Shown here: piece after piece, positions 594 to 10,440 of the stretch
Layout: every line of letters starts with the position of its first letter
Numbering within the stretch: the first letter of the stretch is position 1
Virus record (IMG/VR): IMGVR_UViG_3300030328_003689
Location: 1 to 20,871 of that record
DNA from: a virus
Reading direction: 5' to 3' (one strand)
DNA: 20,871 nucleotides
Notes under the pieces: generated by a model
The model's input: only the letters and a program-made list of their open reading frames with translations
What the model was told of the DNA's origin: nothing
The model's database searches: none
Program-made: the position numbers and the translations under genes

Positions 594-620
594 CTAGGTT
601 CCGCACATTGGTATGACTGA

Positions 621-654
621 GTTTTCCACAGATATTTGACTGCCTGTGGAAAAC
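621..654. repeat. Inverted repeat of two DnaA-box-like sequences
   Basis: GTTTTCCACAG at 621-631 is exactly reverse-complementary to CTGTGGAAAAC at 644-654, with a 12-nt spacer. The 9-bp core TTTTCCACA equals the cyanobacterial DnaA box as I know it. An AT-rich stretch (655-680) adjoins it directly. Whether DnaA binds here is inference. Confidence 0.75.
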
Positions 655-735
655 CTTTTAAATATATTAAAAAATATACTTAATGTGCTCTGTTGATACT
701 GTCTTAGGCCGCCATGCATCGAAAGTCAACCGAAC

Positions 736-761
736 GTGTGCCAGTAGTTTTTGTGGCACAC
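736..761. repeat. Hairpin in the intergenic region
   Basis: GTGTGCCA (736-743) pairs with TGGCACAC (754-761) around a 10-nt loop. No T-tract follows directly, so it is not a standard terminator; it may be an operator or an RNA structure. Confidence 0.45.
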
Positions 762-773
762 AGCAGCACATTT

Positions 774-801
774 TTGCACGTTTTTGAGTTATTATGATAA
801 T
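774..801 (+). promoter_or_regulatory. Possible sigma70 promoter for the KTSC-like gene
   Basis: TTGCAC (774-779) and GATAAT (796-801) are separated by 16 nt. The -10 matches at 5 of 6 positions and the -35 at 3 of 6. Transcription would start near 808 and give a leader of about 87 nt that includes the hairpin at 821-844. Confidence 0.4.
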
Positions 802-820
802 ATAGAAAGTCAGAAATCTC

Positions 821-844
821 AAAAAGTCAGAAAAATGACTTTTT
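821..844 (+). terminator. Leader hairpin, possible attenuator or bidirectional terminator
   Basis: AAAAAGTCA (821-829) pairs perfectly with TGACTTTTT (836-844) over a 6-nt loop. The A-run before and T-run after resemble a weak bidirectional terminator, but the T-run is inside the stem. It sits in the leader of the gene at 895, so an attenuation role is possible. Confidence 0.35.
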
Positions 845-894
845 CACTTTTCTTAAAAACTTTAAAAGCTCCTTTTTAACCTTTAACCCTTCTA

Positions 895-1149
895 ATGGCT
901 ACTAATGTCTTTGAAAACATCAACAGTTCGGCAATATTTCGGATAAAAGTCGAAGATTCAGCTGTATTTGTAACATTTCAAAGCAAAATCGACAAAGAAT
1001 ACGAGTATTCCACAGATAATGTGGAAAACTTCGTAAAATCTGTGGAAAACGTACTAAAAGACAATGAAAAAAGCATTGGCTCGTTTATTAACAAGCAAAT
1101 TAGGTCAAAGGTGCTTAAATTAGATGAAAAGCACCAAAAAGACCAATAA
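895..1149 (+). CDS. KTSC-like domain protein
   Basis: An 84-aa protein. A short N-terminal beta part (FRIKVEDSAVFVTF) with DKEYEY leads into a helical part that ends SIGSFINKQIRSKV. The Tyr-rich strand followed by a Lys/Ser-Gly-x-Phe-x-Asn-x-x-Ile motif is the layout of the KTSC domain, a small module of unknown function often found on nuclease or recombinase-like proteins and as free phage proteins. This is motif resemblance only. No good ribosome-binding site precedes ATG 895. Three TTTTCCACA-like boxes (1006-1014, 1020-1028, 1041-1049) fall inside the coding sequence and partly encode the repeated Val-Glu-Asn. The stop codon is embedded in a late promoter box. Confidence 0.65.
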   Translation: MATNVFENINSSAIFRIKVEDSAVFVTFQSKIDKEYEYSTDNVENFVKSVENVLKDNEKSIGSFINKQIRSKVLKLDEKHQKDQ

Positions 1150-1152
1150 ATA
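1145..1152 (+). promoter_or_regulatory. T4-type late promoter candidate (AATAAATA)
   Basis: AATAAATA matches TATAAATA at 7 of 8 positions and overlaps the stop codon of the preceding gene. It is followed by CTAGTGTTCCG, almost identical to the string after the box at 586-593. It lies 22 bp before the ATG of the next small gene, a suitable distance. Confidence 0.6.
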
Positions 1153-1174
1153 CTAGTGTTCCGATAAACCCATC

Positions 1175-1333
1175 ATGTCCAAATCATATGATATCCATGA
1201 TATCAAACGAGACTTAGACCAAGACGAGATAACTGCCCATTATGATATAAAGAACGTCAAGCGAAGCAAGAAGAAATCTGTTCGCAAGTTTAAGGATAGC
1301 AAATATACGTATGATGATGGGTATGGAGGGTGA
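1175..1333 (+). CDS. Small charged hypothetical protein (52 aa)
   Basis: A 52-aa protein beginning MSKSYDIHDIKRDL. It is rich in Lys, Asp and Tyr, with a basic core (KRSKKKSVRKFKDSK) and a Tyr/Gly-rich tail (YTYDDGYGG). It has no recognisable domain. Support comes from a late-promoter-like box ending 22 bp upstream and from its strongly biased hydrophilic composition. A nucleic-acid-binding or virion-associated role would fit the charge but is only a guess. Confidence 0.55.
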   Translation: MSKSYDIHDIKRDLDQDEITAHYDIKNVKRSKKKSVRKFKDSKYTYDDGYGG

Positions 1334-1414
1334 CAGTTCAATTAGTGTCCACTTTGTCACCCATTGTCGCCAGGATCGGTTATATTAAGAGAGTCAACAA
1401 AGCACGTTCATTCA

Positions 1415-1642
1415 ATGCAACTTCGCCAACTCGGTTCTAATCAGTCTAAACTATCATTTGCAGACGGTAAAGAGGTTTTCTTCTCATATGAAACCCCAGT
1501 CGCAGCATATGTCCCATCTCTAGGGTATGTTAAGACATCACAGAAGTGGAGCAGGACCACATCACGACACATCAGCAATTTCTCAAGTGCTTATGCTCAT
1601 GAGTACCCACAAGATTTCTTCAATTCTCTATTAGATGAGTAA
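1415..1642 (+). CDS. Conserved small phage protein, unknown function
   Basis: A 75-aa protein beginning MQLRQLGSNQSKLSFADGKE, then VFFSYETPVAAYVP and GYVKTSQKWSRTTSRHI. This fold-like pattern, a beta-rich body with FSYxTPVAA and a Thr/Ser-Lys-x-Ile tail, recurs in many cyanophage and other phage proteins of 70-80 aa, always without an assigned function. I take ATG 1415 as the start because the family begins with M-(Q/K)-L-x-x-L-G; the frame is open further upstream to a TTG at 1364. A strong terminator follows 15 bp after the stop. Confidence 0.75.
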   Translation: MQLRQLGSNQSKLSFADGKEVFFSYETPVAAYVPSLGYVKTSQKWSRTTSRHISNFSSAYAHEYPQDFFNSLLDE

Positions 1643-1656
1643 TTGAGAAAACCAAG

Positions 1657-1697
1657 AAAACCGAGATTTCTCAAAAAATGAGATTTCTCGGTTTTTT
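1657..1697 (+). terminator. Rho-independent terminator
   Basis: Two 17-nt arms (1657-1673 and 1679-1695) pair as AAAACCGAGA/TCTCGGTTTT plus TCTCA/TGAGA, interrupted only by two T-T mismatches, around a 5-nt A loop. A run of six T residues (1692-1697) follows. It ends the transcript of the 75-aa gene just upstream. Confidence 0.85.
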
Positions 1698-1702
1698 AAT
1701 AT

Positions 1703-1731
1703 TTGCAATTTTAACAGTTAAATGTTATAAT
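1703..1731 (+). promoter_or_regulatory. Sigma70-type promoter with extended -10
   Basis: TTGCAA (1703-1708), a 17-nt spacer, then TATAAT (1726-1731) preceded by TGT, an extended -10. This is the best host-type promoter in the window. The start site would be near 1738, giving a leader of about 19 nt with a GGAG ribosome-binding site (1748-1751). Confidence 0.75.
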
Positions 1732-1756
1732 TAGTATTACAACACCTGGAGCTTTA

Positions 1757-1885
1757 ATGATGGATTTTGATTTAGAGTTAGCAGAACAGACAGAAGAACT
1801 ACTGGCATACTATGGTACACGTGTACCAGTCACACTGGACTACGAACATGAAGAAACCCCACTTGAGGTGGGGTATCAGGACTAG
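1757..1885 (+). CDS. Small acidic hypothetical protein (42 aa)
   Basis: A 42-aa acidic protein, MMDFDLELAEQTEELLAYYG then a Val/Thr-rich part and EHEETPLEVGYQD. It has a near-ideal promoter and a GGAG ribosome-binding site 5 nt before ATG 1757, which makes this short frame credible. The second codon is also ATG. Its coding sequence contains a 16-bp perfect palindrome (1813-1828) and a hairpin (1856-1874) that may serve the converging minus-strand operon. Function unknown; such small acidic early proteins in phages often bind host proteins, but nothing here shows that. Confidence 0.6.
   Translation: MMDFDLELAEQTEELLAYYGTRVPVTLDYEHEETPLEVGYQD
1813..1828. repeat. 16-bp perfect palindrome
   Basis: TGGTACACGTGTACCA is fully self-complementary. 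It lies within the 42-aa gene, about 75 bp downstream of the predicted transcription start. It could be an operator for a dimeric regulator, or a coincidence of coding. Confidence 0.5.
1856..1874 (-). terminator. Possible terminator of the minus-strand operon
   Basis: ACCCCAC (1856-1862) pairs with GTGGGGT (1868-1874) over a 5-nt loop. Read on the minus strand the hairpin is followed by TTCTTC, a weak T-rich tail, about 50 bp past the last minus-strand stop codon. On the plus strand there is no T-tract. Confidence 0.45.
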
Positions 1886-1893
1886 TCAGCTGA

Positions 1894-1917
1894 CCTGTGG
1901 AAAAACCTGTGGAAAAA
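1894..1917. repeat. Tandem 12-bp repeat containing DnaA-box-like cores
   Basis: CCTGTGGAAAAA occurs twice back to back (1894-1905 and 1906-1917). Each copy carries TGTGGAAAA, the complement of TTTTCCACA. It lies between the convergent 42-aa gene and the minus-strand operon. Confidence 0.7.
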
Positions 1918-1920
1918 CCC

Positions 1921-2172
1921 TCAGTCTGCAATGAAGCAGTCTGGAGGGTTGATTCCATATAGTGTGCCGATTAGATCATCGGCAGTCTCTGGGTCTTCCA
2001 TCTCATTTACATGATCGATTAGTTCCCTTTCAGACATTCTCTCATATTGCATAATGAGAGTTTCATAAATGAATTGATATGCACTGGATGGATCTTCATG
2101 CAATCGATTCGCTTGTAACTCAGCATAATCTTCGATTAGTTGGTCGAAGGTGCAGTCGTTTAGTTCAGGCAT
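1921..2172 (-). CDS. Hypothetical helical acidic protein (83 aa)
   Basis: Fourth and last gene of the minus-strand operon. The 83-aa product begins MPELNDCTFDQLIEDYAELQ and is acidic and helical throughout (YQFIYETLIMQYERMSERELIDHV). No domain is recognised. A longer frame reaches ATG 2250, but I prefer ATG 2172: it overlaps the stop of the preceding small gene by 8 bp (ATGCCTGA), and the extra upstream residues are out-of-frame translation of that gene. The product looks like one of the many small acidic T4-like accessory proteins. Confidence 0.65.
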   Translation of the reverse strand: MPELNDCTFDQLIEDYAELQANRLHEDPSSAYQFIYETLIMQYERMSERELIDHVNEMEDPETADDLIGTLYGINPPDCFIAD

Positions 2173-2332
2173 GGAATGAATCCCAAATGGTAATGAATGA
2201 GTGCATCCAAGCACGTTGCTTTGGAGGCAGATGATAAATGTCTTGCTCATCGGCAGACACTAGGGGTAGACCGTGTGCAATGCAGTAATCTTCATACATT
2301 GCACATAAGCAGTCAGTCGGATCAAATTTCAT
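2165..2332 (-). CDS. Small hypothetical protein (55 aa)
   Basis: Third gene of the minus-strand operon. The 55-aa product begins MKFDPTDCLCAMYEDYCIAH and ends with a helical segment, LPPKQRAWMHSFITIWDSF. It starts by ATGA overlap (2329-2332) with the upstream gene's stop and ends overlapping the next start by 8 bp. This two-sided coupling is strong evidence that this short frame is real. It is relatively Cys-rich for its size (three Cys in the first 17 residues). Function unknown. Confidence 0.6.
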   Translation of the reverse strand: MKFDPTDCLCAMYEDYCIAHGLPLVSADEQDIYHLPPKQRAWMHSFITIWDSFHA

Positions 2333-2511
2333 AATCCGTTCATGTAGTCATGGACTAAATCATTGTACTCGACTTGAGCACGTTCACAAGCGATAGCATA
2401 GACCAGTTCCTCATCTGACCTATCAAGGTCTCTGAAATTAGCAGAGACGATTTCTTCATAGATGGACTCGGCAAGATTTTCGAGTCTGTGAGGATGTGAG
2501 AAATGAGACAT
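2329..2511 (-). CDS. Hypothetical acidic helical protein (60 aa)
   Basis: Second gene of the minus-strand operon. The 60-aa product begins MSHFSHPHRLENLAESIYEE and continues with acidic helices (DLDRSDEELVYAIACERAQV). I chose ATG 2511, 4 bp after the stop of the upstream gene; the frame is open further back, but that stretch is the shadow of the upstream gene. No strong ribosome-binding site is visible, so translation is probably coupled. Function unknown. Confidence 0.6.
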   Translation of the reverse strand: MSHFSHPHRLENLAESIYEEIVSANFRDLDRSDEELVYAIACERAQVEYNDLVHDYMNGL

Positions 2512-2515
2512 GGAT

Positions 2516-2695
2516 TTAAGAATCGGATGAAAGGATTTTGTGATCGGCATTTGAGATTTTATCCCAAACACGGTTGAAGGTTTCGAGGTCGTTGTGCTCT
2601 TCAAAATCCATTGAATAAGCGAATGAGAAGACCTCTTGAATCAAGTCATGCTCTTGCGAGGTGAGATTGATTGAAAACTGATCGGTGAATTTCAT
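2516..2695 (-). CDS. Hypothetical protein (59 aa), first gene of minus-strand operon
   Basis: A 59-aa product, MKFTDQFSINLTSQEHDLIQ then EVFSFAYSMDFEEHNDLETF, with Asn/Asp-Leu helices. The QEHDLIQEVFSFAYS stretch resembles small helical phage proteins but matches no family I can name. I prefer ATG 2695 over a GTG at 2710. A TATTAT sequence just upstream could be a -10, but it would leave almost no leader, so the operon promoter is unresolved; it must lie in the 182 bp between this gene and the divergent gene at 2878. Confidence 0.6.
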   Translation of the reverse strand: MKFTDQFSINLTSQEHDLIQEVFSFAYSMDFEEHNDLETFNRVWDKISNADHKILSSDS

Positions 2696-2877
2696 ACTCT
2701 TATAATACACGATTTTGACCCCAAATCATCCAATTGTAACGGATTACAACACACATTGGGACAGTCTCCCAACTGACCACGGGCGGCCTGAATTTTTTAT
2801 ATTGTTTCATAGTGTAACGATTCTCGTAACAATGACCATGACCGTGTAGAATGAATGAGTTCAAATGAATATCACGC

Positions 2878-3162
2878 ATGACCGTTGCAACACCTCGCAA
2901 GACTCGCACCCGTAAGGTTGCAGCACCGAAGGTAACACCAGTCAAGACCCCTAAGAAGGTCACTGCAACAGTGAGAAAAGTTAAGGCAGTCAAGGCAGTC
3001 AAGGTCTCAGCACCACGCCGCCCCTCATCTGCTAAACTCATCACCCCATCACGCTACATGCAAGACATTAAGGCAAGATGGGCAATTCACAACTATGAGA
3101 TTACAATGCTACTGCAAGATCTCACTAAACTCAACAACTATGTGAGACAGTTCGCAAAGTGA
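2878..3162 (+). CDS. Basic, histone-H1-like N-terminal tail protein
   Basis: A 94-aa protein in two parts. Residues 1-55 are a low-complexity basic tail of Lys, Arg, Val, Ala, Thr and Pro (TPRKTRTRKVAAPK, then KAVKAVKV), like histone H1 or AlgP-type C-terminal domains. Residues 56-94 are a helical module (SRYMQDIKARWAIHNYEITM). The basic tail implies nucleic-acid binding or compaction; that is inference from composition. Similar basic-tail-plus-helix small proteins occur in cyanomyoviruses. No clear ribosome-binding site precedes ATG 2878, but a strong terminator directly follows the gene. Confidence 0.7.
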   Translation: MTVATPRKTRTRKVAAPKVTPVKTPKKVTATVRKVKAVKAVKVSAPRRPSSAKLITPSRYMQDIKARWAIHNYEITMLLQDLTKLNNYVRQFAK

Positions 3163-3167
3163 CCACT

Positions 3168-3192
3168 AAGACCCCACACGGGGTCTTTTTTT
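3168..3192 (+). terminator. Rho-independent terminator
   Basis: AAGACCCC (3168-3175) pairs perfectly with GGGGTCTT (3180-3187) over an ACAC loop and is followed by T residues to 3192. It lies 6 bp after the stop of the basic protein gene. Confidence 0.9.
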
Positions 3193-3199
3193 GTTATTA

Positions 3200-3207
3200 T
3201 ATAAATG
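3200..3207 (+). promoter_or_regulatory. Late-promoter-like or -10-like box (TATAAATG)
   Basis: TATAAATG matches TATAAATA at 7 of 8 positions and lies in TTATTATATAAAT directly behind a terminator, so it probably starts the next transcript. A 36-codon frame from ATG 3205 (stop at 3315) is possible, but I cannot tell whether it is a gene. The gene it most plausibly serves starts at 3363. Confidence 0.35.
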
Positions 3208-3257
3208 TGGAGACGCAAGGCAGGGGTGAGCAACAATCAAATGATCTTTGATTCATT

Positions 3258-3266
3258 TGTGGAAAA
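3258..3266 (-). promoter_or_regulatory. DnaA-box-like sequence
   Basis: TGTGGAAAA, the complement of TTTTCCACA, next to a 7-bp hairpin (3235-3241 / 3247-3253). It is the last of the seven exact copies in the left part of the window. Confidence 0.4.
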
Positions 3267-3362
3267 CTGCTCTTTATGTTTGGAGACCTCTTGTACTGCT
3301 GATCTTAGGATCTGAAAAGACAGTTTTGAAGACTCCACACCACTATTCTTTCTCATCATTCC

Positions 3363-5631: not shown

Positions 5632-5967
5632 ATGTCTGCCCCAACACTTTATAAAGGAATAGTCGATACAGGTGCTTCCTGTCCATGTGCAGGCTCTCCG
5701 TTCACGATGACCCCTACCGTTTCCGAAGTGAAAGTTTTGATTAATGGTTTTCAACCTATCAGGAATGGAGATAAAATGCCTAACAGTCCTGGAATGACTT
5801 GTACGTCTAATCCATCTCCTTGCAGTAATGACCGAACAGTTATTGCATCAGGTTCACCCAAGGTATTAATTAATGGTAAGAGTCTTGCTAAGATGGGAGA
5901 TATTTTAAATGCTGGTACTAACATTCGTGTAGGTGCTGCAGGTGCAATCAGAGTCATCACTAGTTGA
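5632..5967 (+). CDS. PAAR-motif baseplate spike tip protein (gp5.4-like)
   Basis: A 111-aa protein composed of the repeated PAAR pattern: DTGASCPCAGSPF, VLINGFQPIRNGDKM, SGSPKVLINGKSLAKMGDIL, GTNIRVGAAGA. PAAR proteins form a small cone that sharpens the tip of the T4 gp5 or type VI VgrG spike. Length and position at the head of the baseplate module agree with T4 gp5.4. The canonical metal site uses His and Cys, but this protein contains no His at all; Cys17, Cys19, Cys57 and Cys64 are candidates for a four-Cys site. ATG 5632 lies 5 bp after the previous stop. Confidence 0.85.
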   Translation: MSAPTLYKGIVDTGASCPCAGSPFTMTPTVSEVKVLINGFQPIRNGDKMPNSPGMTCTSNPSPCSNDRTVIASGSPKVLINGKSLAKMGDILNAGTNIRVGAAGAIRVITS

Positions 5968-8205: not shown

Positions 8206-8236
8206 TATACATAATATATTACTCAAACTATGCTTG

Positions 8237-8632
8237 ATGCCTACCGTTACAAAGTTTAAGGACTTTTCTCTTTCTTTCACAAGAAATAAGATCACGAATG
8301 ATCTACTTGTGAAGAAGGAGAATGCTGCTATTAAGCAAGCGGTATTAAATATCCTTCTTACAGAGAAGGGAGAAAGATTATATAACAGTGACTTTGGATC
8401 TAGTGTCCGTAGCTATTTGTTTGAACCATTAGATTATGCTACGGCAGGTCTTGTTCAGACTGCGGTGGAAGATTGTTTAGTCGAATATGAACCTAGGGTT
8501 AATATACTTGAACTTAGTGTAATGCCTGATTTTGATAGTAATGGATTTGAAGTGCATCTAGCTTTCTCTATTACAGGTAGGGATGATCTTCCACCTCAAG
8601 ATATTGAGTTCTTCCTTAATCGTACCCGATAA
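8237..8632 (+). CDS. 25: Baseplate wedge protein gp25
   Basis: A 131-aa protein, nearly the length of T4 gp25 (132 aa). It shows the family features: MPTVTKFKDFSLSF opening, AIKQAVLNILLTEKGERLYN, DFGSSVRSYLFEPLDYATAG and the conserved Glu-Pro-Arg (85-87) in YEPRVNI that gives the gp25/VCA0109-type domain its EPR signature. In T4, gp25 joins gp6 and gp53 in the wedge and starts sheath polymerisation. I chose ATG 8237 rather than the TTG at 8234. Its TAA overlaps the ATG of gp6 (TAATG), so the two are translationally coupled. Confidence 0.95.
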   Translation: MPTVTKFKDFSLSFTRNKITNDLLVKKENAAIKQAVLNILLTEKGERLYNSDFGSSVRSYLFEPLDYATAGLVQTAVEDCLVEYEPRVNILELSVMPDFDSNGFEVHLAFSITGRDDLPPQDIEFFLNRTR

Positions 8633-10440
8633 TGCCCTATACTCAAGTTGCTAATTTAGACTTTGCGGATATTAAAGCCGCACTTAAAGATTACATGAGA
8701 GCACAGTCAGATTTTACTGACTATGACTTTGAAGGGTCTGCTATTACTACGTTTTTAGATGTTTTAGCATACAACACTTATTATACAGCATTTAACACCA
8801 ATATGGTGGTAAATGAAATGTTTCTTGACTCCGCTACTCTAAGAGACAATGTTGTAAGCTTAGCAAAGCAAATTGGATATAGACCTAGATCAGCAACTGC
8901 TCCAAAAGCGACTATTGATTTTACAGTTAATTATCAGGGTGGTGGTGCTAGTCCTGATACACTTGTACTAAAGCAAGGAACAGGATTTGTTACTAATTTC
9001 GATGATACTCTATATCAATATGTTGTAATTGAAGATCAGGAAACTCCTCTTGTTAATAATACAGCAACATATGAGGGAATCGATATATTTCAAGGTACTT
9101 TATTAACTCAGTCTTACACAATCAACACTGCTCTTAAGAATCAGCGTTTTATTATCAATAACACTGGTACAGATGTATCAACCATTCGTGTAAAGGTGTA
9201 TAAACAGCAAGGAGATACATCTTTCTTAACATTTAGTAGTGCAGATAACATTTTAAACCTTGATGGTACATCAGAAGTCTATTTCGTAGAGGAAATAGAA
9301 GATGAGAACTATGAAATCTTTTTTGGTGATGGAGTATTTGGTAAAAAGTTAGAAAATGGTAGTTTTGTAGAGATAACCTATCTTACTACATCTGCAGATA
9401 CTACAAATGGAGCAAAGACATTTAGTTTCTCTGGTTTGATACATGATAAGATTAATCCTAGTAACAGCTTTCCTTATGCAACCTCTGTAACCCTAGTAAA
9501 TGCCTCTACAGGGGGTGCTAATCCAGAATCAGTCTCTTCCATCAAGAAGCAAGCTCCAAAGAGTTTTGCGACCCAGGATAGGGCAGTTACAGCAGATGAC
9601 TATGTTTCTATTATTAAGAAGGTTTATGCTTCTATATCAGATATCATTACATTTGGTGGAGAGGAAGACAATCCTCCTGAATTTGGAAAAGTAAAGATTG
9701 CGATTAAACCAGAGAATGCTAGTACTATTTCAGCATTTACTAAGAATGAAATAGTCAAAGCTTTGAAGAATTATTCAGTTGCTTCTGTTACACCTGTAAT
9801 TGTTGATCCTTCTATTCTTTATATCGAGCTTAATTCAACAATAAGTTTCAAAACTTCCAAAACCACTTTAAGTAAAGCAGAAATTCAATCTAAAGTTATT
9901 AAAGCAGTTGAAGATTATATTTCTTCTGCAGAGACAGAAAAGTTTAATGGTAAATTCCGTCACAGTAGATTTGCATCAGTTATAGATGGTGCGGATGGTT
10001 CTATTAACTCAAACCTCACTAATGTAACTCTTAGAAAGGATTTCTATCCTGCATTGAATTCTACTTATTATTATGAACTTTGTTTTGTAAATGCGTTTAA
10101 AGAGTCTTGTGATGCTTCAGTAATGAAGTCAACTGGTTTTGTAGTCAGTGAGTATCCTTCCTTCACAGTGTATTTGGAGGATGATACCTTTGGTAAAATA
10201 GACCTATATAGACTGAATTCCCTTACTGGTGAGAAAGTATATCTTAAGAAAGGTGTGGGTGATATTAATTACACTCACGGTGAAATTAAATTATATGATC
10301 TTACAATCATTAAGGGTAGTTTTACTGATAATAAAATTGAAATCCGTGTAGAACCTGCATCAAGAGATGTAGATGCTGTACGAGAACTATATCTTGACGT
10401 TGATATCTCCAAATCCAATTTTAGTGCAGTTCCAGAATGA
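8632..10440 (+). CDS. 6: Baseplate wedge protein gp6
   Basis: A 602-aa protein (T4 gp6 is 660 aa). The N-terminal 90 residues carry the gp6 hallmark: FADIKAALKDYMRAQSDFTD, YDFEGSAITTFLDVLAYNTY, FNTNMVVNEMFLDSATLRDN, SLAKQIGYRPRSATAP. The middle shows a baseplate-J-like segment (KSFATQDRAVTADDYVSIIK, about residues 307-330) and a typical end strand with IEIRVEPASRDV. gp6 is the dimeric inner wedge element that forms the ring contacting gp25, gp53 and gp7. It is coupled to gp25 upstream and overlaps the giant gene downstream by ATGA (10437-10440). Confidence 0.95.
   Translation: MPYTQVANLDFADIKAALKDYMRAQSDFTDYDFEGSAITTFLDVLAYNTYYTAFNTNMVVNEMFLDSATLRDNVVSLAKQIGYRPRSATAPKATIDFTVNYQGGGASPDTLVLKQGTGFVTNFDDTLYQYVVIEDQETPLVNNTATYEGIDIFQGTLLTQSYTINTALKNQRFIINNTGTDVSTIRVKVYKQQGDTSFLTFSSADNILNLDGTSEVYFVEEIEDENYEIFFGDGVFGKKLENGSFVEITYLTTSADTTNGAKTFSFSGLIHDKINPSNSFPYATSVTLVNASTGGANPESVSSIKKQAPKSFATQDRAVTADDYVSIIKKVYASISDIITFGGEEDNPPEFGKVKIAIKPENASTISAFTKNEIVKALKNYSVASVTPVIVDPSILYIELNSTISFKTSKTTLSKAEIQSKVIKAVEDYISSAETEKFNGKFRHSRFASVIDGADGSINSNLTNVTLRKDFYPALNSTYYYELCFVNAFKESCDASVMKSTGFVVSEYPSFTVYLEDDTFGKIDLYRLNSLTGEKVYLKKGVGDINYTHGEIKLYDLTIIKGSFTDNKIEIRVEPASRDVDAVRELYLDVDISKSNFSAVPE

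Follow-up and report, generated by a model that had tools for sequence, protein, structure and literature searches.

Background

T4-like cyanophages are among the most abundant viruses of the ocean. Origins of the lambda and P1 type are served by initiators that they encode themselves (O and RepA), and phage T4 encodes RepEA and RepEB, proteins of about 45-50 amino acids (aa). The T4 origin oriE possesses 12-nt iterons of unknown role, an early promoter and a lower dependence on gp59 (PMC3016281). Cyanomyoviruses lack MotA and AsiA, and a single theta origin was predicted for Syn9 (PMC2984593). Here we analysed the entire 20,871-bp IMG/VR record IMGVR_UViG_3300030328_003689 (hereafter the window), in which an initial annotation had pointed out a cluster of sites of the cyanobacterial DnaA box type, TTTTCCACA. 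Two of these sites belong to a conserved non-coding element, element A (600-732). Its organisation, conservation and position suggest that element A is an origin-like site of T4-like cyanophages recruiting host DnaA, a reading to which we give a probability of about 0.5.

Box sites and organisation of element A

Seven exact TTTTCCACA sites were counted in the window, at the coordinates given by the initial annotation, all of them within the first 3.3 kb and none in the other 17.6 kb. In 100 dinucleotide-preserving shuffles of the window the mean was 0.47 exact sites, and the largest count was 3. The one-mismatch site TATTCCACA at 1006-1014, the perfect 11-bp inverted repeat of GTTTTCCACAG (621-631) and CTGTGGAAAAC (644-654), and the 12-bp tandem repeat at 1896-1916 were likewise present in the sequence. 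The A/T-only run beside the inverted repeat is also real, although it is shorter than the 655-680 first assigned to it. The coordinates of the features are listed in Table 1.

Table 1. Features of the window related to the box sites
Feature	Position	Strand	Basis or remark
Conserved non-coding element A (box pair, AT-rich core, 3′ block)	600-732	+	Profile match 601-732
Host-type DnaA box TTTTCCACA, left arm of convergent pair	622-630	+	Exact
Host-type DnaA box TTTTCCACA, right arm, gap 14 bp	645-653	-	Exact
A/T-only stretch, candidate duplex-unwinding region	656-678	.	Sequence
Conserved 3′ block (TAATGTGCTCTGTTGATACTGTCTTAGGCCGCC...GTCAA)	684-732	+	Conserved columns in element alignment and alignment A1
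Near-box 1006 (+), exact boxes 1020 and 1041 (-)	1006-1049		Inside open reading frame (ORF) 895-1149
Two boxes, 12-bp direct repeat	1896-1916	-	Exact; between convergent small genes
Conserved RNA-like element E with TGTGGAAAA at 3258-3266	3186-3342	+	Profile matches in about 20 loci

The clustering cannot be put down to the fragmentary nature of the window, because all seven exact sites also cluster in a 132,963-bp relative (the record of L129, G018), where they lie within 2.9 kb (123,808-126,673). In ten isolate genomes of 171-198 kb, representing ten genera, 34 of the 58 exact sites are found at most about 2.3 kb from element A according to our own tally, and the reversed pattern, used as control, gave 20 sites altogether in the same genomes. 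The motif is thus not equally frequent everywhere. The clustering as such is real; nevertheless, the seven sites do not form the single cluster initially proposed, since they have at least three different explanations. Sites 622/645 and 1896/1908 are intergenic.

In element A, a spacer separates TTTTCCACA from TGTGGAAAA; next come an AT-rich core, around AAATGNNTTAAAAAAATATAG, and the 3′ block, around TAAATGTGCTGAGNTNTTGTNNTCTTAGCNCGC...GTCAA. No ORF of at least 45 aa on the plus strand covers 577-894. Homologues in L129, L012, L067 and L102 could be aligned with the window at 600-732, and the box at 622-630 corresponds to high-information columns of the element alignment. The iterated profile search revealed 91 distinct homologous elements, and the boxes of element A are positionally conserved in relatives. 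The 40-bp stretches starting at 645-648 rank within the lowest 0.03% of the window in stability. When one copy of the ACG-2014g type served as BLAST query (E ≤ 0.01), 241 records were retrieved, all cyanophages and many of them near-identical isolates; among the matches listed, element A is unannotated or overlaps a 'hypothetical protein' only. Two 46-kb contigs, L010 and L039, have the size of podoviruses but were rejected as such, the element of L039 being identical to that of the T4-like ACG-2014g.

Host DnaA boxes and helical phasing

Upstream of dnaN (400 bp) in 26 genomes of the Synechococcus/Prochlorococcus family, we found 13 exact TTTTCCACA sites against a shuffle expectation of 0.08, and 75 one-mismatch sites against 2.3. 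TTTTCCACA is therefore the box present at the hosts' own oriC, in agreement with its initial description as the cyanobacterial DnaA box. Several host dnaN upstream regions also possess a convergent TTTTCCACA pair with a gap of 11-12. As in oriC-type origins, boxes that fit the host DnaA-box consensus are grouped together at element A.

Convergent pairs were scanned with the pattern TTTTCCACA-N{4,30}-TGTGGAAAA, and the gaps were taken from the matches listed. Among these matches the gaps peak at 4-5, 14-15 and 25-26 bp, with 14 bp as the commonest gap in viral contigs. Collapsing similar spacers left 95 distinct ones among the matches listed, with a Rayleigh p of about 5e-19 at a 10.5-bp period, a value that is indicative only because the spacer set still shares ancestry. 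Such phasing suggests that the bound proteins would sit on a common side of the DNA helix. In the chromosome of Synechococcus WH7803 a convergent pair with a gap of 35 bp is present (L267:1869-1921), one helical step past the phage series. The GC-rich viral contigs L049, L051, L063, L082, L091, L103 and L105 have in common a TTTTCCACA-N18-TGTGGAAAA pair in conserved context, apparently unrelated to element A.

Genomic setting and downstream promoter

The window is classed as a fragment of a T4-like cyanophage. It encodes a PAAR protein (5632-5967, PHROG match), gp25 (8234-8632), gp6 (8632-10440) and a structural ORF of 3183 aa, and the nearest matches of the gp25/gp6 DNA are Synechococcus phages with about 76% identity. 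Element A is located in a zone of small genes 1.6-7.6 kb upstream of gp25/gp6 in P-SSM7, Syn9, Syn19 and S-PM2. This zone corresponds to that of the annotated oriE of T4, upstream of the PAAR gene 5.4 and gp6, and element A lies, as oriE does, between gene 5 and gene 6, upstream of gp6. Concerning the 12-nt iterons of oriE, one 12-bp tandem pair was found in the window, at 1896-1916, and none in element A. Adjoining element A, the window encodes at 361-576 a protein of 71 aa (phrog_1811), with DNA-level relatives in cyanophages and in the Pelagibacter phage HTVC104P.

A strong, near-consensus sigma-70 promoter pointing away from the element was found within 200 bp downstream in 63 of 83 elements, compared with 10 of 76 upstream controls. 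Many of these promoters are perfect TTGACA-N17-TATAAT. Transcription away from an AT-rich core would leave negative supercoils there, a point also discussed for gidA and the oriC of E. coli. In the proposed mechanism, host DnaA would bind the two convergent TTTTCCACA boxes, spaced in helical phase, and in many relatives it would also occupy additional boxes up to about 2 kb away. Once assembled, the DnaA complex would melt the adjoining AT-rich core. In most relatives this melting would be aided by the negative supercoils that RNA polymerase leaves behind as it departs from the early promoter 3′ of the element, and the phage replisome of gp59, gp41, gp61 and gp43 could then load. DnaA binding, core melting and replication initiation at element A are all inferred from sequence.

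The same promoters would also be expected if element A were an extended regulatory region 5′ of a strong early promoter, with DnaA or another host reader of TTTTCCACA acting as transcription factor. Nevertheless, the boxes and the -35 hexamer downstream of them are separated by well over 100 bp, which is far for direct contact with the polymerase, and the AT-rich core and 3′ block between boxes and promoter are conserved. We regard this explanation as unlikely. The promoter candidate downstream of element A in the window itself is weak, which counts against a transcription factor role as well as against the proposed DnaA-dependent origin.

Cores without boxes

Most of the element collection was retrieved by the box pattern itself. 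A box-free model of 95 positions, comprising the core and 3′ block only, was run on 20 whole phage records. The model recovered Syn9, earlier found via its boxes (E 2e-15), and gave matches in records outside the training set. Three exact boxes lie 20-45 bp upstream of the match in S-PM2 (E 2e-14), and the match in S-SM2 (E 4e-6) itself contains two exact boxes plus a near-box. No boxes were found in S-RSM4 (E 5e-14), P-HM2 (E 9e-5) and P-SSM4 (a weak core match, E 0.01), and only one near-box in P-RSM4 (E 2e-11). Of the six reference phages that were chosen irrespective of boxes and have a plausible core, two thus have boxes with it. The core is also present without boxes in S-SRM01, L138 and L141. 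Marginal matches in the podovirus P-SSP7 (best E 1e-3, within coding-like sequence) and in S-CRM01 (E 0.05) are probably due to chance. P-SSM2, S-SSM7, S-TIM5, the pelagiphage HTVC008M and T4 gave no core match under the strict filters of the search; such absences are soft, because S-SRM01, with a core that BLAST detected, also escaped these filters.

The core is therefore more broadly distributed than the boxes, and the boxes are not universal, since several cyanophages have a core that lacks them. In S-SRM01, S-RSM4, L138 and L141 an inverted repeat, TTCTCAATA...TATTGAGAA, is present near the core in place of boxes. These observations, together with the way in which most elements were retrieved, weigh against recruitment of DnaA at element A. 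To the same side belong the lack of a DnaA-trio-like CTACTACTAC in the window at 600-732, and AT-rich cores that are not unusually unstable in the S-RIM32, S-CAM1 and Syn19 copies. GC skew gave no origin signal in Syn9 either: the cumulative skew rises nearly throughout, with neither a minimum at 52.6 kb, the place of the Syn9 element, nor an origin signature. Of the initial proposal of an origin-like site recruiting DnaA, what stands is the anatomy, the conservation, the box shared with host oriC, the phasing and the location in the oriE zone, while the absence of boxes at several cores does not fit.

Box-less core copies with TTCTCAATA...TATTGAGAA were found at L138:2977-3111 and L141:33-203, in S-SRM01 (L307) and S-RSM4 (L326), and in L042 and L113. 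The copy at L141:33-203 also contains an AT-rich 11-mer (CTTATAAATGT) repeated four times in tandem, iteron-like and adjoining the 3′ block. A Photo_RC search for the hosts of the box-less records matched none of the 11 records and was uninformative. The TTCTCAATA...TATTGAGAA repeat is possibly an alternative recognition module. Tentatively, T4-like cyanophages could possess a modular origin in the oriE zone, in which the core and 3′ block are combined either with DnaA boxes or with the TTCTCAATA...TATTGAGAA repeat.

The different inverted repeat near the core of some box-less relatives would also be compatible with boxes that bind a phage-encoded initiator or repressor, their likeness to the host DnaA box being secondary. 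Dimeric or cooperative proteins in general typically have phased convergent pairs as their sites, which fits this explanation too. However, the box sequence is that of the host's own oriC, and, as in DnaA clusters, there is free variation in pairs, direct repeats and gaps. A phage protein as the main reader of the boxes appears quite unlikely to us.

Other box sites

Sites 1020/1041 correspond to in-frame Val-Glu-Asn codons of ORF 895-1149. Their nucleotide sequence is not conserved in the close relative L129, which lacks those codons, and the search of viral contigs with ORF 895-1146 gave no relatives. Both boxes, together with the near-box at 1006, are probably a coding coincidence. The codon explanation, which the initial annotation had named as one that could undo its proposal, holds for these two sites only and not for the remaining ones. 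At the place corresponding to 1896-1916, L129 carries its boxes as an inverted pair with a gap of 5. An in-frame TGTGGAAAA (TGT GGA AAA, Cys-Gly-Lys) was observed in Syn9 (54597), ACG-2014b (47997), S-RIM12 (48465) and S-RIM8 (43342), no more than 300 bp from the start of the large gene that precedes gp25. This site likely reflects codon conservation and not a binding site.

Site 3258 is located in element E (GACGCAAGGCAGGGGTGAGCAACAATCAGATG...CTGTGGAAAACTGCTCTTTATGTTTGGAGACCTCTTGTACT), which is present in about 20 cyanophage contigs, including L129:5823-5986, L012:4773-4940 and L156-L170. Its consensus fold is accompanied by a few compensatory changes, but single sequences fold no better than shuffles, and no Rfam family matched element E. 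Element E is probably a structured RNA and a candidate new phage RNA, and site 3258 is probably not part of a DnaA-type element.

Coding constraint or RNA structure, with no binding site involved, thus holds for 1020/1041 and probably for 3258. As an account of element A it is improbable, since element A is non-coding with indels, a conserved RNA fold of its 3′ block was rejected because no common fold was detected, and the gap phasing is hard to explain otherwise. Rfam gave no match in the window at the gathering threshold and one sub-threshold snoRNA match, attributed to chance. ARAGORN detected no tRNA in the window and none at the S-PM2 element, so that a tRNA at the element was discarded. 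In the S-PM2 record (NC_006820, 19177-19333) tRNA-Asn and tRNA-Leu are annotated over the element without ARAGORN support, and this annotation looks shifted.

A decoy that titrates host DnaA and halts replication of the host chromosome, the other function initially suggested, is very improbable: several isolates do possess extra boxes at distances of up to about 2 kb from the element, but the isolate genomes from which the element was retrieved contain only 3-12 exact sites, against 14 exact sites in the 2.4 Mb of Synechococcus WH7803 plus its near-boxes, and the conserved core, 3′ block and position would be left unexplained.

Comparison with known origins

In the cyanophage and DnaA literature covered, with most subscription journals outside its scope, no earlier description of such an element was found, and as far as this literature shows, the element is new in T4-like cyanophages. 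It offers a largely unannotated candidate of about 130 bp that can be tested in the cultured phages S-PM2, Syn9 and P-SSM7. If replication from element A depends on DnaA, replication of lytic phages would be tied to the cell-cycle initiator of the host. Should the modular origin be true, lytic T4-like phages would possess an origin driven by host DnaA, with a recognition module swapped between lineages, and in its DnaA-box version early phage replication would depend on the host initiator.

Similar to element A, the oriC of marine Synechococcus and Prochlorococcus, in the thrC-dnaN gap, contains the same 9-mer, convergent pairs and AT-rich sequence adjoining the boxes. However, host oriC has more boxes, which are more degenerate, gaps of 11-12 and a CTACTACTAC trio, seen beside a box in the AT-rich (Prochlorococcus-like) host origins inspected. 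Element A possesses mostly exact boxes, gaps of 14-15, a different core and the 3′ block, and its copy in the window has no CTACTACTAC trio. Given the lack of both the trio and a skew signal, we do not place element A in the oriC family, although it would work like one of its members.

T4 oriE has in common with element A the position upstream of the PAAR gene 5.4 and gp6, an early promoter and repeated sequence elements. In contrast to element A, oriE contains 12-nt iterons instead of DnaA boxes and lies inside gene 5, and the T4 genome gave no match to the core model. Phage and plasmid origins of the lambda and P1 type resemble element A in combining initiator sites, an AT-rich unwinding region and nearby transcription; unlike the proposed element A, which would rely on DnaA of the host, they are served by the self-encoded O and RepA.

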